64,000 bases of DNA from contig NZ_FOKZ01000004.1 of assembly GCF_900112285.1 (NCBI RefSeq), positions 1 to 64,000 of the forward strand, written 5' to 3'. The notes below the pieces were generated by a model that saw only the letters and a program-made list of their open reading frames with translations, was not told the DNA's origin and ran no database searches. The stretch comes from Polaromonas sp. OV174 (GTDB taxonomy: Bacteria > Pseudomonadota > Gammaproteobacteria > Burkholderiales > Burkholderiaceae_C). Position numbers and translations under genes: made by a program. Position 1 is the stretch's first letter. Each line of letters opens with the position of its first letter. This document shows, piece by piece, positions 39,040-63,019 of this stretch.

Positions 39040-39096
39040 AAAAAGTGGCTATAGCCCAATAAGGACGAGCGCCACCAGCTATTAAATTAATAGTTG
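39040..39096 (-). repeat. Copy of the AATAGC interspersed repeat
   Basis: On the minus strand it reads AACTATTAATTTAATAGCTG, GTGGCGCTCGTCCTTATTGG and GCTATAGCCACTTTTT. It is the most complete copy and serves as my reference for the family. Confidence 0.75.
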
Positions 39097-50762: not shown

Positions 50763-51581
50763 ATGACCATGACAACAGCAGAAAGCATTGCCCACGGCAG
50801 CTCGTGGACCGTGGCCGGAACGACTTTGAATAGCCGGTTTTTTCTCGGCACTTCGCACTACCCCTCGCCGCAGGTGATGAGCGAGGCGGTGCGCGCCAGC
50901 GGCACCCAAGTGCTGACCGTGGGCCTGCGCCGCCTGCAGCCCGAGAGCGGCGGCGGCAACAGCTTCTGGCAACGCATCCAGGCGCTGGGCTGCCACATCC
51001 TGCCCAACACGGCGGGCTGTCACTCTGCCTCCGAAGCCATCACGTTGGCGCAGATGGCGCGCGAGATTTTCGGCACCACCTGGATCAAGCTGGAGGTGAT
51101 AGGCGATGACTACACGCTGCAGCCCGACACCGTGGCCACGCTGGAAGCGGCGACGGTGCTGGCGCGCGAGGGCTTTGCGGTGTTTGCCTATACGACGGAC
51201 GACCTGGTGATGGCGCAGCGCTTGCGCGATGCCGGCTGCGCCGCCGTGATGCCCTGGGCCGCGCCCATAGGCACGGGCCGTGGGCCGCTCAACCCTTACG
51301 CGCTGGAAACCATGCGCCGGCGTTTGCCCGATGCGGTGCTGGTGGTCGATGCCGGCCTGGGCCGGCCCTCGCATGCGGCGCAGGTGATGGAGTTGGGCTT
51401 TGACGCCGTGCTGCTCAACACCGCCGTGGCGCAGGCCGGCGACCCGGTGCGCATGGCGCGCGCCTTTGCCGACGGCGTGGCGGCCGGCCGCGCCGCTTAC
51501 GAATCCACCCCCATGCCCGAGCGCGCTGCGGCGCAGGCCTCCACCCCAACCGTCGGCGTGCCGTTTTGGCATGCCAATTAA
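50763..51581 (+). CDS. thiG: Thiazole synthase ThiG
   Basis: A 272-residue TIM-barrel enzyme that assembles thiazole phosphate from deoxyxylulose phosphate, dehydroglycine and ThiS thiocarboxylate. The lysine of the Schiff base lies in [12 protein letters not shown], and phosphate-binding loops are [16 protein letters not shown] and [23 protein letters not shown]. Start directly after the thiS stop. Confidence 0.97.
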
Positions 51582-51585
51582 TGCC

Positions 51586-52221
51586 ATGAAATCCACTGCC
51601 TTCACACCATTGACCGGCCCCATCGGCTTTTATCCCGTCGTGCCCGATGCCGCCTGGGTGCAGCGCCTGCTGGACTGGGGCGTGCGCACGATTCAGCTGC
51701 GCATCAAGGCGGCCGACCACACGCAATCCGAGATTGAACGCGAGGTGCGCGCCGCCGTCGAGGCGGGCAGCAAAGTAGCCGGCGCGCAGGTCTTCATCAA
51801 CGACCACTGGCAGCTTGCGCTGGCGGCCGGTGCCTATGGCGTGCACCTGGGCCAGGAAGACCTGGACAGCGCCGACCTGGACGCGCTGCGCAGCGCCGGC
51901 ATCCGCCTGGGCCTGAGCACGCACACGCCGGCCGAGCTGGCGCGGGCCAAGGCGGTGCAGCCGTCCTACCTGGCGATTGGTCCGATTTACCCGACCACGC
52001 TGAAAGTCATGCCCTATGAGCCGGTGGGGCTGGAACAACTAAAGGCGTGGCTGCCACTGGCCGCACCCTACCCGGTGGTGGCGATAGGCGGCATTTCGTT
52101 GGAGCGCCTGCCCGGCGTGATGGCTTGCGGCGTTGATGGCGTGGCGGTGGTCAGTGCCGTGACGCTGGCGCCAGATCCGCAAGCTGCGGCGCTGAGCGGT
52201 GTGCGGCTGGCGCTGCGCTAA
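51586..52221 (+). CDS. thiE: Thiamin-phosphate synthase ThiE
   Basis: A 211-residue TIM-barrel enzyme that joins HMP-pyrophosphate and thiazole phosphate. Motifs: IQLRIKAAD (diphosphate contact), VFINDHWQLAL, GVHLGQEDL and YLAIGPIYPTTLK. Last gene of thiC-O-S-G-E; thiD and thiL are not in the window. The start is ATG 51586; an upstream ATG at 51571 overlapping thiG is the alternative. Confidence 0.93.
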   Translation: MKSTAFTPLTGPIGFYPVVPDAAWVQRLLDWGVRTIQLRIKAADHTQSEIEREVRAAVEAGSKVAGAQVFINDHWQLALAAGAYGVHLGQEDLDSADLDALRSAGIRLGLSTHTPAELARAKAVQPSYLAIGPIYPTTLKVMPYEPVGLEQLKAWLPLAAPYPVVAIGGISLERLPGVMACGVDGVAVVSAVTLAPDPQAAALSGVRLALR

Positions 52222-52230
52222 AACCGGGTT

Positions 52231-52284
52231 TTAGGCATTAAATAGTGCTCTAGCCCAATAGTGACGGGCGCAAGGCGCTATTGA
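52231..52284 (-). repeat. Diverged copy of the AATAGC interspersed repeat
   Basis: On the minus strand it reads ATCAATAGCGCCTTGCGCCC, then GTCACTATTGGGCTAGAGC and ACTATTTAATGCC. It directly abuts the decayed OYE fragment at 52281-52329. Confidence 0.55.
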
Positions 52285-52329
52285 TCGGATAGCGTCGGGT
52301 CGTCGGTATAGCGCCTTGGTGCCGCCGCC
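52281..52329 (-). pseudogene. Decayed duplicate of the OYE gene 3' end
   Basis: The plus strand TTGATCGGATAGCGTCGGG (52281 on) followed by CGTCGGTATAGCGCCTTGG and GCCGCCGCC matches the last 48 bases of the OYE gene at 56331-56378 with about four substitutions and one extra base, in the same orientation. The extra base breaks the frame (intact form encodes GGGAKGYTDYPTLSD). The two copies are direct repeats around the 4-kb GntR-sulfatase-Bug-kinase block. Confidence 0.85.
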
Positions 52330-52364
52330 AGCACGGCTGACTGGCGTGAGGCGTGAGACGAGTT

Positions 52365-52407
52365 TTGACGCAGCTGGAAAAATTTGTATACTTGCATGCA
52401 AGAATAC
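52365..52407 (+). promoter_or_regulatory. Promoter and palindromic operator of the GntR gene
   Basis: TTGACG (52365-52370) and TATACT (52387-52392) with a 16-bp spacer form a good sigma-70 promoter. A 22-bp palindrome at 52386-52407 (GTATACTTGCATGCAAGAATAC), asymmetric only at one pair, covers the -10 box. FCD-type GntR proteins bind such CTTGxATxCAAG sites, so autorepression is likely. Confidence 0.75.
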
Positions 52408-52417
52408 AGGATCCATC

Positions 52418-53194
52418 ATGACGCCTACATTAGCCCGCAGCAATTCAAAATCTCAAGCATCCGGTCAGCTTGACCTGGGTGGGCCCATAGGCTTGCACAC
52501 CGGGCTTCCCATCCGTCACCAGGTGGAGCAGCGCCTGAAGGAGCGGATTCAGAACGTCACCCTGCTGCCGGGCACGCCGTTGCCCGAAAACGAGCTGGCT
52601 CAGCAGCTGGAAGTCTCGCGCACTCCGGTGCGCGAAGCGCTGCAACGATTGACCCACGAGGGTTTGATCCAGGTGGTGCCGCAGGTCGGCACCTTCGTCG
52701 CGCGCATTGACCTGGATCGCGTGAAAGAAGCCCTCTTCGTGCGCGAGGCCGTCGAATGCACCGCGCTGACCAACATCAGCACCCGGCTATCGAAGGACGA
52801 CATGGCGGCGCTGAAGCGCCTGGTGGAAATGCATCAGGCAGCTGTTGAGAAGAACGACACCGAAGCGACGCTGCGGGCGGACGAGGCCTTTCATCGCTAC
52901 CTGCTGGCGCTGGGCGGCGTGCCCGGAGCCTGGCGCTACGTGCAGGAGGCGCGCGAGATGCACCGGCGCGTACGCATCCTCACGCAGACCAGTGCGGCTG
53001 ACGGCGCGCGACGCTCGGTTGCGCAACACGCGAGCATCTTGAAACGGCTGGCACAAGGCAAGTTGCCTGAGGCCGCCGATCTGCTTCGCGAGCATGTCCG
53101 GATGAATTTCGAGATGGCCAAGGAGCTGGCCCGTTCACATCCGGACTACTTTGTGGCGAGCTCAATTGCCACCTTGCCTGGCACCAACGCCTGA
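52418..53194 (+). CDS. GntR-family regulator, FCD subfamily
   Basis: A 258-residue regulator. The winged HTH spans about residues 35-95 (PENELAQQLEVSRTPVREALQRLTHEGL) and the helical FCD ligand domain follows. FCD regulators sense organic acids or sugar acids. The ATG at 52418 lies just after the operator. It is the first gene of the block with sulfatase, Bug protein and kinase, all on the same strand, and probably controls them. Confidence 0.93.
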   Translation: MTPTLARSNSKSQASGQLDLGGPIGLHTGLPIRHQVEQRLKERIQNVTLLPGTPLPENELAQQLEVSRTPVREALQRLTHEGLIQVVPQVGTFVARIDLDRVKEALFVREAVECTALTNISTRLSKDDMAALKRLVEMHQAAVEKNDTEATLRADEAFHRYLLALGGVPGAWRYVQEAREMHRRVRILTQTSAADGARRSVAQHASILKRLAQGKLPEAADLLREHVRMNFEMAKELARSHPDYFVASSIATLPGTNA

Positions 53195-53200
53195 ACACGT

Positions 53201-54685
53201 ATGACTCCCAAACACCCCAACGTTCTCTTTGTGATGGTCGACCAGTGGCCCGGCAAGTTGCTGCGGACCGCCGGCCATCCGCGCGTGCTCACGCCCACGC
53301 TAGACCACCTGGCCCGCCTGGGCACGCGCTACAGCCGTGCCTATTCCGAATGCCCCATCTGCATTCCCGCGCGCCGCACCGTGATGACCGGAACATCGTC
53401 TCGCACGCATGGCGACCGCAGCTTCGCGCCGGCGATGGAGATGCCTGCGCTGCCGACGATGGCGCAGAGCTTTCGCGATGGTGGCTACCAAGCTTATGCC
53501 GTCGGCAAGATGCATGTGTTCCCGCAGCGCGATCGCATGGGCTTTGACGACATTTTGCTGGCCGAGGAAGGCCGGCCGCAACTGGGCAGTGTTGACGACT
53601 ACGACATCTACCTCTCTGAGCAGGGCGTGGCCGGAGAACAGTTTCTCCACGGGATGAACAACAACGACTACCTGTTCAGGCCTTGGCACCTTCCCGAGCG
53701 CATGCATGTGACCAACTGGACCACGCGCGAGATGGCCAAAACCATCAAACGTCGCGACAAGCGCAAGCCCGGTTTCTGGCATGTGTCCTACACGCATCCG
53801 CATCCGCCACTGGTGCCGCTGGAGAGCTACCTCAATCTCTATGAACGCGCCGCCATCGACCTGCCGCTGGGCGCGAGTTGGGCAGGCGAAGACGTGCCGC
53901 ACGCGCTGCAGACCATACGCGACCACTGGTACACGCGTTATGCCGACGACGAGCTGCAGGCCATACGCCGCGCTTTCTACGCCTTATGCACCCACATCGA
54001 TCACCAGCTGCGCGTGCTCATAGGCACCTTGCGCGAAGAGCAACTGCTGGAAGACACCGTCATCCTGGTCTGCAGCGACCACGGTGACATGCTGGGCGAC
54101 TTTGGCCTCTGGGCCAAGCGGCTGTTCTATGAAGGTGCGGCCAACATCCCCATGCTGCTGGTCGGTCCGAGTCGCGACGCCCGCATCGGGGTCAACCGTG
54201 TTGATGACCGCCTGGTCGGTCTGCAGGACGTGATGCCTTCGCTGCTGGACCTGGCCGGGCTGCCCGTGCCTGCTTCGGTGGAAGGGATTTCCATCGTCGG
54301 CAATCAGCGCCGCGAGGTGCTCTACGGCGAGTGCAAGGAGAACGCCCTGGCCACCCGCATGGCCCACGATGGCCGCCACAAGCTGATCTGGTATCCCGCT
54401 GGCAACGTGCTGCAGCTCTTTGACCTTGAAACCGATCCAGGCGAGGCATGCAATCTCATCGGCCATCCGGATCGGGTCGCGGTGGAGCAGCGCCTCACCC
54501 GATCGCTGATGGACAAGCTCTGGGGTGGCGATCTGGACTGGGTGAAAGATGGCCGCCTTGTCGGTATGCCGCGACCGGCCGCATCACCTGGCAAGGGCGA
54601 CCGCCATTTCGGCGGTCAGCGTGGTCAGCACTACCCGCAGCCGCCGCTGGACGACCCTGCGCGCATGGTCGGGTCGCCGGGCTGA
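53201..54685 (+). CDS. Type I sulfatase, probably cytoplasmic
   Basis: A 494-residue alkaline-phosphatase-superfamily sulfatase. C54 in the motif C-I-P-A-R (CxPxR) is the residue converted to formylglycine; metal ligands include D14 (MVDQW) and the SDHGDMLGDFG segment. No signal peptide is visible, so it acts in the cytoplasm on an imported sulfate ester. Phosphonate monoester hydrolases and choline sulfatases are close relatives and cannot be excluded. It lies 6 bp after the GntR gene. The sulfatase-maturing enzyme is not in the window. Confidence 0.88.
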   Translation: MTPKHPNVLFVMVDQWPGKLLRTAGHPRVLTPTLDHLARLGTRYSRAYSECPICIPARRTVMTGTSSRTHGDRSFAPAMEMPALPTMAQSFRDGGYQAYAVGKMHVFPQRDRMGFDDILLAEEGRPQLGSVDDYDIYLSEQGVAGEQFLHGMNNNDYLFRPWHLPERMHVTNWTTREMAKTIKRRDKRKPGFWHVSYTHPHPPLVPLESYLNLYERAAIDLPLGASWAGEDVPHALQTIRDHWYTRYADDELQAIRRAFYALCTHIDHQLRVLIGTLREEQLLEDTVILVCSDHGDMLGDFGLWAKRLFYEGAANIPMLLVGPSRDARIGVNRVDDRLVGLQDVMPSLLDLAGLPVPASVEGISIVGNQRREVLYGECKENALATRMAHDGRHKLIWYPAGNVLQLFDLETDPGEACNLIGHPDRVAVEQRLTRSLMDKLWGGDLDWVKDGRLVGMPRPAASPGKGDRHFGGQRGQHYPQPPLDDPARMVGSPG

Positions 54686-54739
54686 GCGCCAAGCTTTCAT
54701 TCAACAGATACAACGATTTCACATAAGGAAAGAGAGACG

Positions 54740-55723
54740 ATGAAACGCAGGAATTTGATTAGCTTGGCCACGGCGGCCGGGCTGGCCGTTGGCACCATGG
54801 GCGTCACTGGCTTGGCACAGGCTCAGGCCTGGCCGGCACAAAAGCCGATACGTTTGATCGTGCCCTTTGCCGCTGGCGGCAATGCCGACATCATCGGCCG
54901 CGTATTCGCGCAGAAGATCGGCGAGTCCATAGGGCAGAGCATTGTGGTGGACAACCGTGCGGGTGCGGGGGGGTCTATTGGCGCCACGCTCGCCGCACGG
55001 GAACCGGCGGATGGCTACACGCTTTTCCTGGGCGACATCGCCACCCACGCCATCAACCGCCTGGCCATGCCCAAACTGCCCTACGACGCAGAGAAAGACT
55101 TCGTGCCGGTCTCGCGTCTGACCTCGGTGTCGCTGCTGCTGGTGGCCAATGGCAAGAGCGATGTCAACGACACCGCAGGCCTCATCAAGTGGGCCAAGGC
55201 CAATCCGGGCAAACTCAGCTACGGCTCCAGTGGCAACGGCACGCCCAGCCACTTGTCCACCGAAATGTTGCGTGGCATGACGGGAATGGACATCCAGCAC
55301 ATTCCCTACAAGGGTAGTGCGCCGGCGCTCAACGACCTGGTCGCTGGCCAGATCGACCTGATGATCGACGGCTCGGCGGCACCGCTGGTCAAGGCCGGCA
55401 AGCTCAAGGTGCTGGCTGTCACCGGCCAACGCTCGCCCGCTTTTCCCAATGTGCCCACCTTGGCCGAGGCCGGCGTGGCAGGATTCAACTTTGTCTCCTG
55501 GCATGGACTCTTCGCGCCCAAGGGCACGCCGCCAGAGGTTGTCCGCAAGGTCGCCGCGGCAGTCGCAGAGATCGCCCGCCGCCCCGACGTGCGTGCGCAG
55601 CTCGAAGGTCTGGGCATCACCTTGAATACCAGCTCAGGCCAGGAGTTCAGCAACTTCATCGCGCAGCAGCGGCAGTCTCTGGCCACGCTGGTCAAGCAAC
55701 GTCAGATCAACTTCGACCAGTGA
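54740..55723 (+). CDS. Bug/TctC-type tripartite tricarboxylate transporter binding protein
   Basis: A 327-residue periplasmic binding protein of the Bug family. A signal peptide ends at AQA; the mature protein has WPAQKPIRLIVPFAAGGNADIIGR, VVDNRAGAGGSIGATLAAREPADGYTL and IPYKGSAPALNDLVAGQIDLMIDG, all typical. Bug proteins bind carboxylated ligands. No TctA/TctB membrane genes accompany it, so it must use a permease elsewhere, as many orphan Bug proteins do. Position suggests it captures the sulfated or acidic substrate of the neighbouring enzymes. Confidence 0.92.
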   Translation: MKRRNLISLATAAGLAVGTMGVTGLAQAQAWPAQKPIRLIVPFAAGGNADIIGRVFAQKIGESIGQSIVVDNRAGAGGSIGATLAAREPADGYTLFLGDIATHAINRLAMPKLPYDAEKDFVPVSRLTSVSLLLVANGKSDVNDTAGLIKWAKANPGKLSYGSSGNGTPSHLSTEMLRGMTGMDIQHIPYKGSAPALNDLVAGQIDLMIDGSAAPLVKAGKLKVLAVTGQRSPAFPNVPTLAEAGVAGFNFVSWHGLFAPKGTPPEVVRKVAAAVAEIARRPDVRAQLEGLGITLNTSSGQEFSNFIAQQRQSLATLVKQRQINFDQ

Positions 55724-55740
55724 GGCCTAGCGGAGTTTCT

Positions 55741-56301
55741 ATGGGTGGCGGCGACGCCGCCGCACCCATTGTCGTGATGGGCGTGTCCGGCTGCGGTAAA
55801 TCGACCTTGGCCCTGAGCTTGGCGACGGCTCTGGCGTGGCCCTTCATCGAAGGCGATGCCTATCATCCGCCGGCGAACGTAGAGAAGATGACCGCCGGCA
55901 TTGCCCTGACGGATGCCGATCTGCAATCCTGGCTGGCTTCCTTGGTCGAGGTGTTGCGCACGCACCCGCAAGGGACGGTGCTGAGTTGCTCGGCCCTCAA
56001 GGCCGCCTACCGGGATACGCTGCGACAAGCCCATGCGGGCATGCGCTTCGTTTTTCTGGATCTTGACGAAGTCGCCGCAACGCAGCGCGTGGCAGCTCGC
56101 AGTGGCTCGCATTTTTTCAACCCATCACTGGTGCGCAATCAGTTTGACAACCTGCAGCGACCCGATGCCGAGCCGGGCGTTCTCTGTCTGGATGCAATGC
56201 TGCCGCAGGCGCTGCTTTGCCAGCAGGCCCTGGTCTGGGTGAAAGGTGAAGCGCCAAAGCCTGAAGGCCAGCGTCATCAACGGCCTATATTGGCTTTGTG
56301 A
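55741..56301 (+). CDS. Gluconokinase-like carbohydrate kinase
   Basis: A 186-residue P-loop kinase of the gluconokinase (GntK) family. Walker A GVSGCGKST is at about residues 14-22, and the substrate motif EGDAYHPPANVEKM and LTDADLQSWL are present. It resembles the second kinase at 62510-63019 in all motifs but is clearly diverged. The start at ATG 55741 follows GCGGAG; a GTG at 55720 overlaps the Bug gene. In this block it would phosphorylate the sugar acid freed by the sulfatase. Confidence 0.88.
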   Translation: MGGGDAAAPIVVMGVSGCGKSTLALSLATALAWPFIEGDAYHPPANVEKMTAGIALTDADLQSWLASLVEVLRTHPQGTVLSCSALKAAYRDTLRQAHAGMRFVFLDLDEVAATQRVAARSGSHFFNPSLVRNQFDNLQRPDAEPGVLCLDAMLPQALLCQQALVWVKGEAPKPEGQRHQRPILAL

Positions 56302-56329
56302 GGCCGTTCGCCACCCACGTTGGCAGCTC

Positions 56330-57436
56330 TTAATCGGATAGCGTTGGGTAGTCGGTATAGCCCTTGGCGCCGCCGCCGTAAAAAGTGCTTTGGTCCGGCG
56401 TGTTGAGTGGCGCATTGAGGTGCAGGCGCGTCACCAGGTCGGGGTTGGCGATGAAGGGTTTGCCAAAGGCGATCAGATCGGCGCCATCCTTCACGGCCTG
56501 CTCGGCGTGCGCCTTGTCGTAGCCGTTGTTCACCATCCAGGCGCCCTGGCCGCCAGCGGCGCGGTAGGCGGCCTTGAGCGCCGGGTAGTCGAACGGGCGC
56601 TCGGGCAGGTCGCGCGGCCCGCCGGTGGCGCCTTCAATGATGTGGATGTAGGCCAGGTCCAGCTTGGCGAGCTGCTTGATCACATAGTCAAACAGCGGCT
56701 GCGGATCGGCGTCGTAAGCATCGTTGGCCGGTGTGACCGGTGACAGGCGAATGCCGGTGCGGCTGCTGCCAACGGCGCCGGCGACGGCACGCACCACTTC
56801 GAGCAGCAGGCGGGCGCGGTTTCGTATGCTGCCGCCATAGTCGTCGTGGCGCTGGTTGGAGCCGCTTTTGAGAAACTGATCCAGCAAGTAGCCGTTGGCG
56901 GCATGGATTTCCACGCCGTCAAAGCCGGCGGTTTCGACCGCATTGCGTGCCGCCGCCTGGTAGGTGTGAACGATCTCGGGCAGCTCGCCGACATCCAGCG
57001 CGCGCGGCTCCGAGGTCGGCACGAAGACCGGTACGCCGCCTCTGATCAGCACGGTCTTGGTCTTGGCGGTGATGGCCGATGGCGCCACCGGCGCGGCGCC
57101 GCCAGGCTGCAGCTCGCGATGAGAAACCCGGCCCACATGCCAGAGCTGGGCCACGATCTTGCCGTCTTCGTCATGCACCGCCTGGGTCACCTGCTTCCAG
57201 CCGTCGAGTTGCTCGCTGCCATAGAGGCCGGGCACATCGGCATAGCCCTGGCCCTGCTGGCTGATGGCGGTGGCTTCGCTGATCAGCAGGCCGGCGCTGG
57301 CGCGCTGGGCGTAGTAGGTGGCCATCAGCGGCGTGGGAATGGCGTCGGGCGCGCGGTTGCGCGTCAGCGGCGCCATCACGATGCGGTTGGCGAGCTGCAG
57401 GTCACCGACCTGGATGGGATCGAATAAGGAAGGCAT
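56330..57436 (-). CDS. nemA: Old Yellow Enzyme family NADH:flavin oxidoreductase
   Basis: A 368-residue FMN-dependent ene-reductase of the NemA/XenB type. It begins SLFDPIQVGDLQLANRIVMAPLTRNRA and has the barrel motif GFDGVEIHAANGYLLDQFL with its substrate-binding H and N residues. These enzymes reduce activated alkenes, maleimides, nitroesters and quinones. The last 48 bases are duplicated in decayed form at 52281-52329. The gene name is a class label, as substrate is not known. Confidence 0.92.
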   Translation of the reverse strand: MPSLFDPIQVGDLQLANRIVMAPLTRNRAPDAIPTPLMATYYAQRASAGLLISEATAISQQGQGYADVPGLYGSEQLDGWKQVTQAVHDEDGKIVAQLWHVGRVSHRELQPGGAAPVAPSAITAKTKTVLIRGGVPVFVPTSEPRALDVGELPEIVHTYQAAARNAVETAGFDGVEIHAANGYLLDQFLKSGSNQRHDDYGGSIRNRARLLLEVVRAVAGAVGSSRTGIRLSPVTPANDAYDADPQPLFDYVIKQLAKLDLAYIHIIEGATGGPRDLPERPFDYPALKAAYRAAGGQGAWMVNNGYDKAHAEQAVKDGADLIAFGKPFIANPDLVTRLHLNAPLNTPDQSTFYGGGAKGYTDYPTLSD

Positions 57437-59454: not shown

Positions 59455-59513
59455 TTGCTATTAAATAAATAGCTGTTGGCGCTTATTGTGCATGGGTTAA
59501 AGGCCTTTTTGGC
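59455..59513 (+). repeat. Copy of the AATAGC interspersed repeat
   Basis: It reads TTGCTATTAAATAAATAGC, then TGTTGGCGCTTATTGTGC and ATGGGTTAAAGGCC with TTTTT. One of the best copies; the end AAAGGCCTTTTT could serve as a weak terminator. Confidence 0.72.
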
Positions 59514-59563: not shown

Positions 59564-60583
59564 TTATTTCTGAGCGCGTATCTTGACCAGTTCGGCCTGG
59601 GTTTCGTTCCACAAGTCCATGCCGACGTCGTTGCCGATCTGGGTATAGACCTGGGTCAGCTTGTTACGCATGCGGCTGGCTTCGGCCGGCGACAGCTCGT
59701 TGACCTGCATGCCCTTGGCCTTGAGGTCGGCCATGGCCTTGGAGGCTTCGTCGCGCGTGTCCTTGCGCTCGTAGTTGCGGCTGGTCTTGGCGGCGTCCAT
59801 CAGCACTTTCTGCTCGGCCTTGGAGAGCTGGTCCCACCACTTCTTGCTGACCAGCACGATCCACGGGCTGTAGACGTGGTTGGTCACGGTCAGGTACTTT
59901 TGCACCTCGTAGAACTTGCTCGACAAGATGGTGTTGTAGGGATTTTCCTGGCCGTCAACGGTCTTGGTTTCCAGCGCGCCGAAGAGCTCGGAAAAAGCCA
60001 TGGGCACGGCGTTGGCGCCCAGGGTCTTGAAGCTGCTCAGGAACACGTTGTTCTGCATCACGCGCAGCTTGATGCCGTCCATGTCTTCGAGCTTTGTGAC
60101 CGGGCGCTTGCTGTTGGTCAGGTTGCGAAAGCCGTTTTCCCAATAGACCAGACCGACCAGGCCTTTTTCCTGCAGCTTGTCCTTGATTTTCTCGCCGATG
60201 GGGCCGTCCAGCAGGATGTCGGCTTCCTTGGGGTTGCTGATGAGAAAGGGCGTGTCCCACAGCGCCATTTCCTTGGTAATGCCGACCAGCGTGGCGGTGG
60301 AGCCGACCATCATTTCCTGCGCGCCGCCTATCAGCGCCTGCTGCATCTGCGTGTCGGGGCCCAGCGCGGCGGCGCCAATGGCGCGCACCTTCATCTTGCC
60401 GCCCGAGGCTTTTTCTACCGCTTCGGCAAACACCTTGGTGGCGCGGCCCTGGTTGCTTTGCTCATTCAGGCCATAGCCAAAACGGATGATGCGCGGCTTG
60501 ATGTCTTGCGCCAGTACCGAGAAGGAGGCGCCGAGCACGGCGACGGTGGCGGCGGCGACAAGAGTGCGTCGAATAATAGTCAT
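59564..60583 (-). CDS. TRAP transporter solute-binding protein (DctP family)
   Basis: A 339-residue periplasmic binding protein with an N-terminal signal (TLVAAATVAVLGASFSVLAQ). DctP features: LEDMDGIKLRVMQNNVFL, TKTVDGQENPYNTILSSKF. It closes the gluconokinase-dctQ-dctM-dctP run, which suggests gluconate or a related sugar acid as ligand. A G-rich tandem repeat separates it from dctM. Start supported by AGGAGA. Confidence 0.92.
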   Translation of the reverse strand: MTIIRRTLVAAATVAVLGASFSVLAQDIKPRIIRFGYGLNEQSNQGRATKVFAEAVEKASGGKMKVRAIGAAALGPDTQMQQALIGGAQEMMVGSTATLVGITKEMALWDTPFLISNPKEADILLDGPIGEKIKDKLQEKGLVGLVYWENGFRNLTNSKRPVTKLEDMDGIKLRVMQNNVFLSSFKTLGANAVPMAFSELFGALETKTVDGQENPYNTILSSKFYEVQKYLTVTNHVYSPWIVLVSKKWWDQLSKAEQKVLMDAAKTSRNYERKDTRDEASKAMADLKAKGMQVNELSPAEASRMRNKLTQVYTQIGNDVGMDLWNETQAELVKIRAQK

Positions 60584-60603
60584 GGGAATGTCTCCTGGTT
60601 TTT

Positions 60604-60636
60604 GGGTGAGGGTGAGGGTGAGGGTGAGGGAAGGGG
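60604..60636 (+). repeat. GGGTGA tandem repeat with G-quadruplex potential
   Basis: Five GGG tracts are separated by TGA, then AA and GGGG. It fills most of the 54-bp gap between dctM and dctP. The G tracts are on the plus strand, the template for these genes. Confidence 0.9.
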
Positions 60637-60637
60637 C

Positions 60638-61930
60638 TTAGCGCATCCACGCGACGGGCGCGGTGACGATCTGGGGAAAGAGCACAAAGAGGAAGAGGAT
60701 CAGCGTGTAGGTGATGAGGAAGGGGTTGACGCCCCGTATCACCTGGTGCAGCGGCATGCGGCCCACGCCGGCCACCACGTTAAGCACCGTGCCGACCGGC
60801 GGCGTGATCAGGCCGATGGCGCCGTTAAGCACAAACATCAGGCCAAAGTAGACCGGGTCTATGCCGGCCTTGACGGCAATCGGCAGCATCACCGGCGCGA
60901 AGATCAGTATGGTGGGAGTGAGGTCAAGCGCCGTGCCCACCAGGATCAGCGCGACCATCATCACGGCCATCAGCAGGCGCGGGTTATCCACCAGCGGGCC
61001 CAGCCAGTTGGTCAGCGTGCTGGGCAGGTCGGCCAGGGTGATCATGTAGCTGGCGACCTGGGCGCCGGCGCATAGAAACATCACGATGGCGGTGGTCTTG
61101 GCGGCGCGCACCAGCACGCCGTGCACTTCGGCCAGCTTCATTTCGCGGTGCACGAATAGGGCCACGACCAGCGCATAAAAGGCGGCGACCACGGCCGCTT
61201 CGGTCGGTGTGAAGATGCCGGTTTTCATGCCGCCAATGATGATGAGCGGCATCAAGAGCGCCCAAAAGGCCTTGACGGTGGCGCGCAGTCTTTCGCGCAT
61301 GGGCAGCGGCTGGCCCTGGGGCAGGTCGGTCTTGCGTAGCACCAGCTTCCAGGCCACGATCAGGCCGACACCCATGATGATGCCGGGCACGATGCCGGCG
61401 ATGAAGAGCGCCGAGATCGAGGTGTTGGTGGTGACGCCGTAAATCACAAAGGGCAGCGAAGGCGGAATGATGGGCGCGATGATGCCGCCCGAGGCAATCA
61501 GCCCGGCCGAGGTATGCATGGGATAGCCCTGCTGGCGCATCATGGGCAGCAGAATAGTGGCCAGCGCGGCGGTGTCGGCCAGCGCCGAGCCGCTCATGCT
61601 GGCCATCAGCACGGCCGCGCCAATCGCCACATAGCCCAGGCCGCCACGGATATGACCGACCCAGGCCTGCGCCATGGCGATGATGCGGCGGCTGATGCCG
61701 CCCGAGTTCATCAGCTCGCCGGCCAGAATGAAAAAGGGCACGGCCAGCAGCGGAAAGCTGTCCACCCCGGCGACCAGGTTTTGCGCCAGCAGCTGGGTGT
61801 CCCAAAAGCCCAGCACCCAGGCCATGCCAGCGCCGGTCAGCACCAGCGCCAGGCCCATGTTCATGCCTATGCCCATGAGCAGCAGCATGCCCAGCGAAAA
61901 AACGATGAAGGCCTGACCTTCGCTGCTCAT
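60638..61930 (-). CDS. TRAP transporter large permease (DctM family)
   Basis: A 430-residue permease with about twelve helices and DctM signatures: LLAVPFFILAGELMNSGGISRRI, SGSALADTAALATILLPMM and ITPPVGTVLNVVAGVG. It carries the substrate across the inner membrane with sodium ions. The ATG at 61930 gives MSSEGQAFIVFSLGMLLL. It follows dctQ and belongs to the gluconate-type operon. Confidence 0.93.
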   Translation of the reverse strand: MSSEGQAFIVFSLGMLLLMGIGMNMGLALVLTGAGMAWVLGFWDTQLLAQNLVAGVDSFPLLAVPFFILAGELMNSGGISRRIIAMAQAWVGHIRGGLGYVAIGAAVLMASMSGSALADTAALATILLPMMRQQGYPMHTSAGLIASGGIIAPIIPPSLPFVIYGVTTNTSISALFIAGIVPGIIMGVGLIVAWKLVLRKTDLPQGQPLPMRERLRATVKAFWALLMPLIIIGGMKTGIFTPTEAAVVAAFYALVVALFVHREMKLAEVHGVLVRAAKTTAIVMFLCAGAQVASYMITLADLPSTLTNWLGPLVDNPRLLMAVMMVALILVGTALDLTPTILIFAPVMLPIAVKAGIDPVYFGLMFVLNGAIGLITPPVGTVLNVVAGVGRMPLHQVIRGVNPFLITYTLILFLFVLFPQIVTAPVAWMR

Positions 61931-62000
61931 GCTGCGCTCCGCTGCGCGTTGGCCGGCCCGGTCTGGGCGTGTGAGATGAGGGGTTTGAATGTCATGGGAC

Positions 62001-62513
62001 TTATTCCACTTCCGCACCGTGACCGAGGTCCAGCGGCGTGCGTTTGATGATTTCGAACAGCGCCATCAGGCCTATGGCCGCGGCGCATAAAAAAGCCGGC
62101 AGTGGCAGCAGCGCGGTCGGGTAGCCGAGCACCACCGAGTAGCTGTCCAGGCCGACCACCACCTGTTGCCAGGCGCCCCAGCCCAACAGGGCGCAGCCCA
62201 GCAGCACCAGCGCGCGTATCAGCAGCGTCATGGCCAGCATGGCGCGTGGTTTTTTTTGCAGCGCGCCGACCAGGCTGGTGAAGGCCATGTGCTCGCCGGC
62301 CGGGTAGGCGGCGGTGGCGCCTATGAAGACCATCCAGACAAACAGCAGGCGCGACAGCTCTTCGCTGGCGGCCACGCCGCTGCCAAAGCCGTAGCGCAGC
62401 ACCACGTTGATGAAAACCGCCACGGCCATCACGCCCAGGCAGCTGGCCATCAGCGCATTGCTGATACGTTGAAAGCGGCTCTTGGGCGCTTCGGTCACGG
62501 TGTCTGTAGTCAT
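62001..62513 (-). CDS. TRAP transporter small permease (DctQ family)
   Basis: A 170-residue four-helix membrane protein. The DctQ motif is NVVLRYGFGSGVAASEELSRLLFVWMVFIGA. It pairs with DctM to form the membrane part of a TRAP transporter. Its ATG overlaps the gluconokinase stop codon (ATGA), so kinase and transporter are co-translated. Confidence 0.92.
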   Translation of the reverse strand: MTTDTVTEAPKSRFQRISNALMASCLGVMAVAVFINVVLRYGFGSGVAASEELSRLLFVWMVFIGATAAYPAGEHMAFTSLVGALQKKPRAMLAMTLLIRALVLLGCALLGWGAWQQVVVGLDSYSVVLGYPTALLPLPAFLCAAAIGLMALFEIIKRTPLDLGHGAEVE

Positions 62514-63019
62514 GCTTGCTCCTGTTGGGCCTTGAGCCAGGCGCTGACCTCGAGCTGCAATTGCGCCAGCGAGTCCAGCGCATCGACGCGCAGCACGCCG
62601 GCCTCGCCGGTGGGCAGCTCCAGCGTGGCGAACTGGCTGTCGACCAGGCTGGAGGCAAAGAAATGCAAGGGTGCGCGCGCCGCGACGCGGGCCTTGGCTT
62701 GCTCGGGGCTGATGTCCAGGAAGACGAAGCGCAGACCCGGTGCGGCCTGACGCAGGCGCTCGCGGTAGGCCCGCTTGAGCGCCGAGCAAGTGAGCACCAA
62801 CGCCTCGGGATGAGCCTGCAGTTGCTCGCTCAAGGTGTTGAGCCAGCCCTCGCGGTCGGCGTCGGTCAGGGCCACGCCCTGGCTCATCTTGGCCCGGTTG
62901 GCGGGGCTGTGATAGTCGTCGCCCTCGACCAGCTGCAGGCCTGTGGTCTGGGCAATTTTGGCGCCCAGGCTGGACTTGCCGCAGCCGGCAACGCCCATGA
63001 TGACAAGTGAATGGCTCAT
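62510..63019 (-). CDS. gntK: Gluconokinase
   Basis: A 169-residue GntK. Walker A GVAGCGKSS is near residue 8, EGDDYHSPANRAKMSQG and LTDADREGWL form the gluconate site. It makes 6-phosphogluconate for the Entner-Doudoroff or pentose phosphate pathway. First gene of the gntK-dctQ-dctM-dctP operon, divergent from a LacI-type regulator, with two identical palindromes in the intergenic region. It is the second gluconokinase-type gene in the window. Confidence 0.94.
   Translation of the reverse strand: MSHSLVIMGVAGCGKSSLGAKIAQTTGLQLVEGDDYHSPANRAKMSQGVALTDADREGWLNTLSEQLQAHPEALVLTCSALKRAYRERLRQAAPGLRFVFLDISPEQAKARVAARAPLHFFASSLVDSQFATLELPTGEAGVLRVDALDSLAQLQLEVSAWLKAQQEQA

Follow-up and report, generated by a model that had tools for sequence, protein, structure and literature searches.

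Probable insertion of a four-gene operon between thiE and an old yellow enzyme gene in Polaromonas sp. OV174, with duplication of the gene end

In the first 64,000 nt of contig NZ_FOKZ01000004.1 of Polaromonas sp. OV174 (the whole stretch analyzed, hereafter the window), a block of 3,992 bp (52330-56321) lies between the thiamine phosphate synthase gene thiE and a convergent gene of the old yellow enzyme (OYE) family. The block has the order candidate promoter, GntR, sulfatase, Bug, gluconokinase, and a copy of the OYE 3′ end stands on each side of it. We conclude that this four-gene block was probably inserted in this lineage with duplication of the OYE gene end (probability roughly 0.8, a value that covers the insertion and the tail duplication and excludes the mechanism). 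An earlier note on this DNA had named the four genes and placed them between repeats at 52281-52329 and 56331-56378. Profile matches bore out the gene names, and its repeat coordinates were off by no more than a few bases; the alignment extends 7-8 nt more, past the OYE stop codon.

The two copies are in direct orientation. Their local alignment spans 57 columns, with 50 identities, 5 substitutions and 2 single-base gaps, and its score of 75 compares with a maximum of 33 in 500 shuffles of the tail-containing 83-nt stretch against 4.7 kb. As a control, self-comparison of the flanks of 41 other OYE loci in the genus gave a top score of 28. A 28-nt core of the repeat (≤3 mismatches) gave two hits in the 4.53 Mb genome, both being the copies themselves, and the reversed-pattern control gave none. 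Recurrence at many unrelated sites, a possibility raised in the earlier note, was thus not observed, and a dispersed repeat was rejected on the same count. The two copies are not identical, so an assembly duplication is unlikely.

OYE matches (E ≤ 1e-140) were found in 71 of the 87 genus genomes, that of OV174 included, and the locus was examined in 41 of the 70 others. The flanks of these 41 loci ranged from none on one side (three loci) or 123 bp up to 14 kb; many genomes are drafts, and all statements on the absence of a tail copy or of an adjacent thiE apply to the flank sequence examined. In 14 of the 41 genomes thiE and OYE were convergent, the matches lying 23-160 bp apart (G029, G020, G016, G008, G010, G036, G032, G313, G325, G320, G323, G319, G311, and G335). 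This is the empty site, thiE followed directly by OYE with one tail copy, which the earlier note had suggested looking for, and the four genes are therefore not a feature of this interval in all relatives. A GST gene lay beyond OYE within the examined flank in 9 of the 14 genomes, as it does in the window, which argues that OYE sits in its native place. No second copy of the OYE tail was found in the examined flanks of the 41 loci. The change probably ran from empty to filled.

Of the two copies, the left one most likely marks where the OYE gene originally ended, as judged by the likeness of the spacer beside it to that of relatives. When positions 52222-52276 (the spacer and the first 3 nt of the left copy) were compared with the OYE-end spacer of 17 relatives, the score was reached by 0 of 200 shuffles in six genomes (G016, G325, G323, G319, G335, and G014), by 1-5 of 200 in five, and by at least 11 of 200 in six. 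The sequence left of the right copy (56230-56321) gave 1 of 200 in G029, at least 22 of 200 in the other 16 genomes, and 0 of 200 in none. The comparison used single-base shuffles and unequal stretches (55 vs. 92 nt), and a shared dispersed motif may contribute to it in part. The left copy has one extra base that is missing from all 41 relatives, as well as changes at columns nearly invariant in them; the right copy is complete and keeps the reading frame. Between the two copies 6 of 53 columns differ, the 41 relatives differ from the right copy in 6-19 columns and from the left copy in 8-25, and the two copies are as near each other as either is to any relative. These distances fit a duplication in this lineage, without proving it.

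The protein matches suggest that the block was acquired from another Burkholderiales lineage. The nearest sulfatases found were those of Bordetella genomosp. 4 (75% identity), Achromobacter kerstersii (73%) and Advenella incenata (71%), each followed by a Bug gene (59, 62 and 51% identity, respectively). Within the genus, sulfatase matches at E ≤ 1e-30 occurred in 15 of the 86 other genomes, nine of them at orthologue level with 60-64% identity and with more distant Bug genes alongside; neither OYE nor thiE was found beside these nine in flanks of up to 1.5 kb. It is this greater nearness to Bordetella and Achromobacter than to the genus that points to acquisition. In the wider family, one of 249 other genomes had a sulfatase at E ≤ 1e-60 (G106; 55% identity, and a weak GntR match next to the sulfatase), and in the order none of 398 other genomes had one at E ≤ 1e-150. 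GntR had no match at E ≤ 1e-60 among 398 other genomes of the family sample (top candidates per genome scored). For the kinase, 6 of 398 genomes gave a match at E ≤ 1e-55, with 56-58% identity, and the best match within the genus had 53%. Plasmids were rejected as a source: 89 plasmid records matched the block by DNA, none covering 80% of it (top-ranked, 30% at 66.5%), and the top-ranked plasmid sulfatase reached 62%.

Several observations weigh against an acquired and inserted block. No donor with all four genes was found, only the adjacent sulfatase and Bug genes in the three Alcaligenaceae loci examined. The GC content of the block (0.62-0.64) is inside the flank range (0.60-0.69), and GC at third codon positions (GC3; 0.70-0.80) overlaps that of the flanks (0.765-0.859); the comparison of GC and codon use proposed in the earlier note therefore did not set the block apart, and its base composition is not foreign. 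Neither an integrase nor another mobility gene is present among the four block genes, and none of the 14 Pfam Phage_integrase matches of the genome lies on the same 271 kb contig (C34), in keeping with the earlier statement that no integrase is visible. The absence of tail duplications in the 41 other OYE loci means that the OYE end is not known as an attachment site. In 27 of the 41 loci thiE was not seen beside OYE, so the genus has at least two arrangements here, adjacency being one of them. Finally, the right copy is equally distant from G014 and from the left copy. On the composition, the likely donors are presumably also GC-rich, and host-like GC then says little. The kinase has a GC3 of 0.695, below every flank gene measured, and the GC3 of GntR (0.764) is level with the lowest.

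For the mechanism, we tentatively favor recombination between two short sites resembling attachment (att) sites, with a recombinase that acted in trans or has since been lost. A self-contained catabolic operon would have been acquired and inserted once in this lineage, at the OYE 3′ end where OYE meets thiE, duplicating about 56 bp. The copy joined to OYE would have kept the gene whole, and the displaced original end would have stayed beside thiE and decayed. Site-specific recombination is preferred because of the length of the repeat and because the target is a gene end, the gene is restored and its native end is displaced. Att repeats of tyrosine recombinases are generally 8-60 bp long, with one repeat keeping the target gene whole, according to the portion of PMC5704250 used here. 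The earlier note had read the repeats as a scar of site-specific integration. The part of that reading that holds is the insertion together with the duplicated gene end, given the 14 empty sites in 41 genomes, whereas a site-specific recombinase was not supported, with neither an integrase nor reuse of the site in evidence.

Searches for such machinery at the OYE end gave the following results. Twelve of the 14 integrases of the genome, used as queries, had no relative in the OYE loci examined, and all 12 recovered integrase loci as a control. Ten open reading frames (ORFs) near the OYE 3′ end in nine genomes contained no phage integrase by Pfam. One of the ten, 402 nt past the end of OYE in G316, is a DDE_3 transposase gene (L156:3006-4100), which indicates that mobile DNA does land near OYE there. 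Repeated integration at the OYE 3′ end as a hot spot was rejected on the lack of tail copies in the examined flanks of the 41 loci, and a tRNA target on the lack of any tRNA in the window. Transposon target duplications are usually short; a transposon was rejected, given a duplication of about 56 bp and no inverted repeat between the 80-nt insert ends (best local score 14). In a literature search for OYE together with integration sites, "old yellow enzyme" was absent among the matches listed.

The same scar is accounted for almost as well by homology-facilitated illegitimate recombination, and we place the site-specific mechanism just slightly ahead of it; this second explanation is a realistic though less probable one. 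A linear donor with the operon beside OYE would have joined by homology on the right, within OYE, and illegitimately on the left, within the recipient's own OYE tail, so that the old tail stayed behind as a remnant. Such events have one homologous and one illegitimate end, the latter mostly with 3-10 bp of micro-homology, in the part of PMC3240628 consulted. Requiring no integrase, this process would explain the missing integrase, the host-like composition and the clean operon edges together. A left join anywhere in OYE would also leave a tail copy free of cost, and thiamin synthesis would be lost if the join fell in thiE. However, searching 87 genus genomes (often drafts, with short flanks) for the sulfatase revealed no donor with the operon beside OYE, and recombination of this type generally deletes recipient DNA, again in the material drawn from PMC3240628. 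OYE segment identities showed no clear shift of the nearest relative toward the 3′ end, a weak test.

Break repair or template switching, in which the operon, coming from another part of the genome or with incoming DNA, was inserted at no specific site and 56 bp of target were duplicated, is unlikely. It agrees with the lack of an inverted repeat at the insert ends and of any recurrence in the examined flanks, but insertions of this type do not usually duplicate as much as 56 bp of target. Least probable is that the four genes originally lay between thiE and OYE and were lost elsewhere, the repeat being a chance likeness or a conserved element: thiE and OYE are indeed separated in two further genomes (convergent on the same contig, 8.3 kb apart in G024 and 10.1 kb in G025), but these have no tail copy within 600 nt after thiE and none of the four islet genes in between (tblastn), 77 of the 87 genus genomes, many of them drafts, have no orthologue-level sulfatase match, and the repeat core is OYE coding sequence found at two genome places only.

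A palindromic motif was noted at the OYE stop region. The left copy contains GCTAT-N7-ATAGC, from which the right copy deviates by one base, and three other places in the window contain it as well. Sites close to GCTATTNATNNNATAGC are at 59457, 20908 and 33685 (all on the minus strand and all GCTAT-N7-ATAGC), at 39079 (minus strand, a near match) and at 52277 (plus strand), and also in OYE/thiE spacers of relatives; the motif appears to be an element dispersed through the genus. A palindrome with a 7-nt spacer has what we take to be the shape of a tyrosine-recombinase core site. That these sites are substrates of a recombinase in trans, by which operons without integrases are moved between gene ends as cassettes, is a long shot; if true, the islet would be one captured example of such cassettes in the genus.

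The coordinates of the block and its neighbors are given in Table 1. The block resembles a single complete operon. The left repeat copy and the promoter-like site are 35 bp apart, and the kinase stop and the right copy 20 bp; a terminator-like site was not found where the operon ends. One sigma-70-like site was found vs. 0.6 expected in shuffles. The palindrome over its -10 region would be the GntR operator, probably an autoregulatory one. The gluconokinase ORF is open from a GTG at 55720, and its start was taken as the ATG at 55741. No signal peptide was apparent by eye in the sulfatase. Matches to the formylglycine-generating-enzyme family were present in the genome (three Pfam PF03781 stretches at two places), so the Cys-type sulfatase could be activated. 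The operon may serve to take up a sulfated sugar-acid-like compound, which would be desulfated in the cytoplasm and its product phosphorylated. A second gluconokinase-like gene is present in the window (62519-63010, minus strand; 50% identity to the islet kinase), near DctP/DctM transporter genes at 59564-62017.

Table 1 Features of the islet and its neighbors in window coordinates
Feature	Position	Strand	Basis or remark
thiE (thiamine phosphate synthase), left native neighbor	51400-52221	+	TIGR00693, NF002904 above cut-off; ORF start mechanical
thiE/OYE spacer, native-looking	52222-52273		Likeness to OYE-downstream spacer of relatives
Left repeat copy, putative displaced and decayed OYE 3′ end	52274-52329		CAA vs. 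TAA stop of right copy; 1-nt insertion
Candidate sigma-70-like promoter of inserted operon	52365-52392	+	10/12 consensus bases; consensus match only
Palindrome TGTATACTTGCATGCAAGAATACA, 24 nt, overlapping -10 region; candidate GntR operator	52385-52408		22/24 positions symmetric
GntR/FCD transcriptional regulator	52418-53194	+	PF00392, PF07729
Cys-type sulfatase	53201-54685	+	PF00884, PF16347; CIPARR motif at residues 54-59
TctC/Bug-type periplasmic binding protein	54740-55723	+	PF03401
GntK/IdnK-type gluconokinase	55741-56301	+	TIGR01313, 152.8 bits (cut-off 113.75)
Right repeat copy, with the OYE 3′ end intact (48 nt), extending 8 nt past stop	56322-56377		Alignment
OYE/N-ethylmaleimide reductase-like (NemA-like) gene, right native neighbor	56330-57436	-	PF00724

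The thiE ORF overlaps thiG by 182 nt (51400-51581). In relatives it has an in-frame stop at query residue 6 (five genomes) or 60 (one genome), and the real thiE start is therefore probably downstream of the ORF start. The OYE protein scored 397.5 bits against NF007899, slightly below the cut-off of 403, and the GST gene adjoins OYE on its far side. Two locations of OYE seem to be common across the genus. Where thiE is not beside OYE, several genomes have a hemerythrin-domain gene near OYE (L033:8839-9417, PF01814, from a scan of L033 only), with similar ORFs in L036, L037, L045, L048, L155, and L163; a metal-ATPase-like ORF is often near OYE in these loci, as judged by eye. In G028 (L031, L088) thiE and OYE are each close to a contig end, and there may be a repeated sequence between them.

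The insertion looks real and of a familiar kind, an integrase-less genomic islet, and a new kind of element is not established. It is a clean case in which a single operon is slotted between two conserved convergent genes and the empty site is known. It may serve as a test bed for the insertion of islets without integrases, and it suggests that a sulfatase/Bug/kinase pathway was gained by one lineage.

The sulfatase-Bug pairs of Bordetella, Achromobacter, and Advenella consist of the same adjacent genes (71-75% identity for the sulfatase, 51-62% for Bug) but differ in their surroundings, in that a gene of LysR-type appearance (by eye) stands upstream and neither GntR nor gluconokinase has an adjacent match at E ≤ 1e-3; in L103 one weak GntR match lies 4.6 kb from the pair. 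Products of homology-facilitated illegitimate recombination, as described in the sections of PMC3240628 used, resemble the islet in that foreign DNA stands next to a homologous segment and mobility genes are not needed; unlike the usual products, the islet has a duplication instead of a deletion. The microcin H47 island of Escherichia coli is likewise small cargo between imperfect direct repeats, with empty sites elsewhere and no recombinase gene of its own, and it does excise (PMC3191183, in part). In the part of PMC5426353 consulted, none of the tested E. coli K12 recombination functions, including 16 site-specific recombinases, appeared to be involved in that excision. The H47 island is 13 kb long, its excision and integration were detected experimentally, and its sites are widespread in E. 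coli, whereas the islet is 4 kb long, occurs once and is known from sequence alone. A cis-mobilizable element (CIME) has lost its integration and transfer genes and kept attL and attR, in the account taken from PMC5704250. The islet is like a CIME in its att-length repeats at the 3′ end of a protein gene, in the whole target gene and in the absence of integration and transfer genes. Unlike a CIME, it is a complete operon with narrow margins and not element debris, and there was no sign that integrative and conjugative or integrative and mobilizable elements use the site. Among the hallmarks of CIMEs and integrase islands, an integrase (which a CIME does not need), integrase elements at the same site and a foreign composition (common, not essential) were lacking, whereas flanking direct repeats, one of them completing OYE (putative att sites), and an empty site in 14 of 41 genomes were present.

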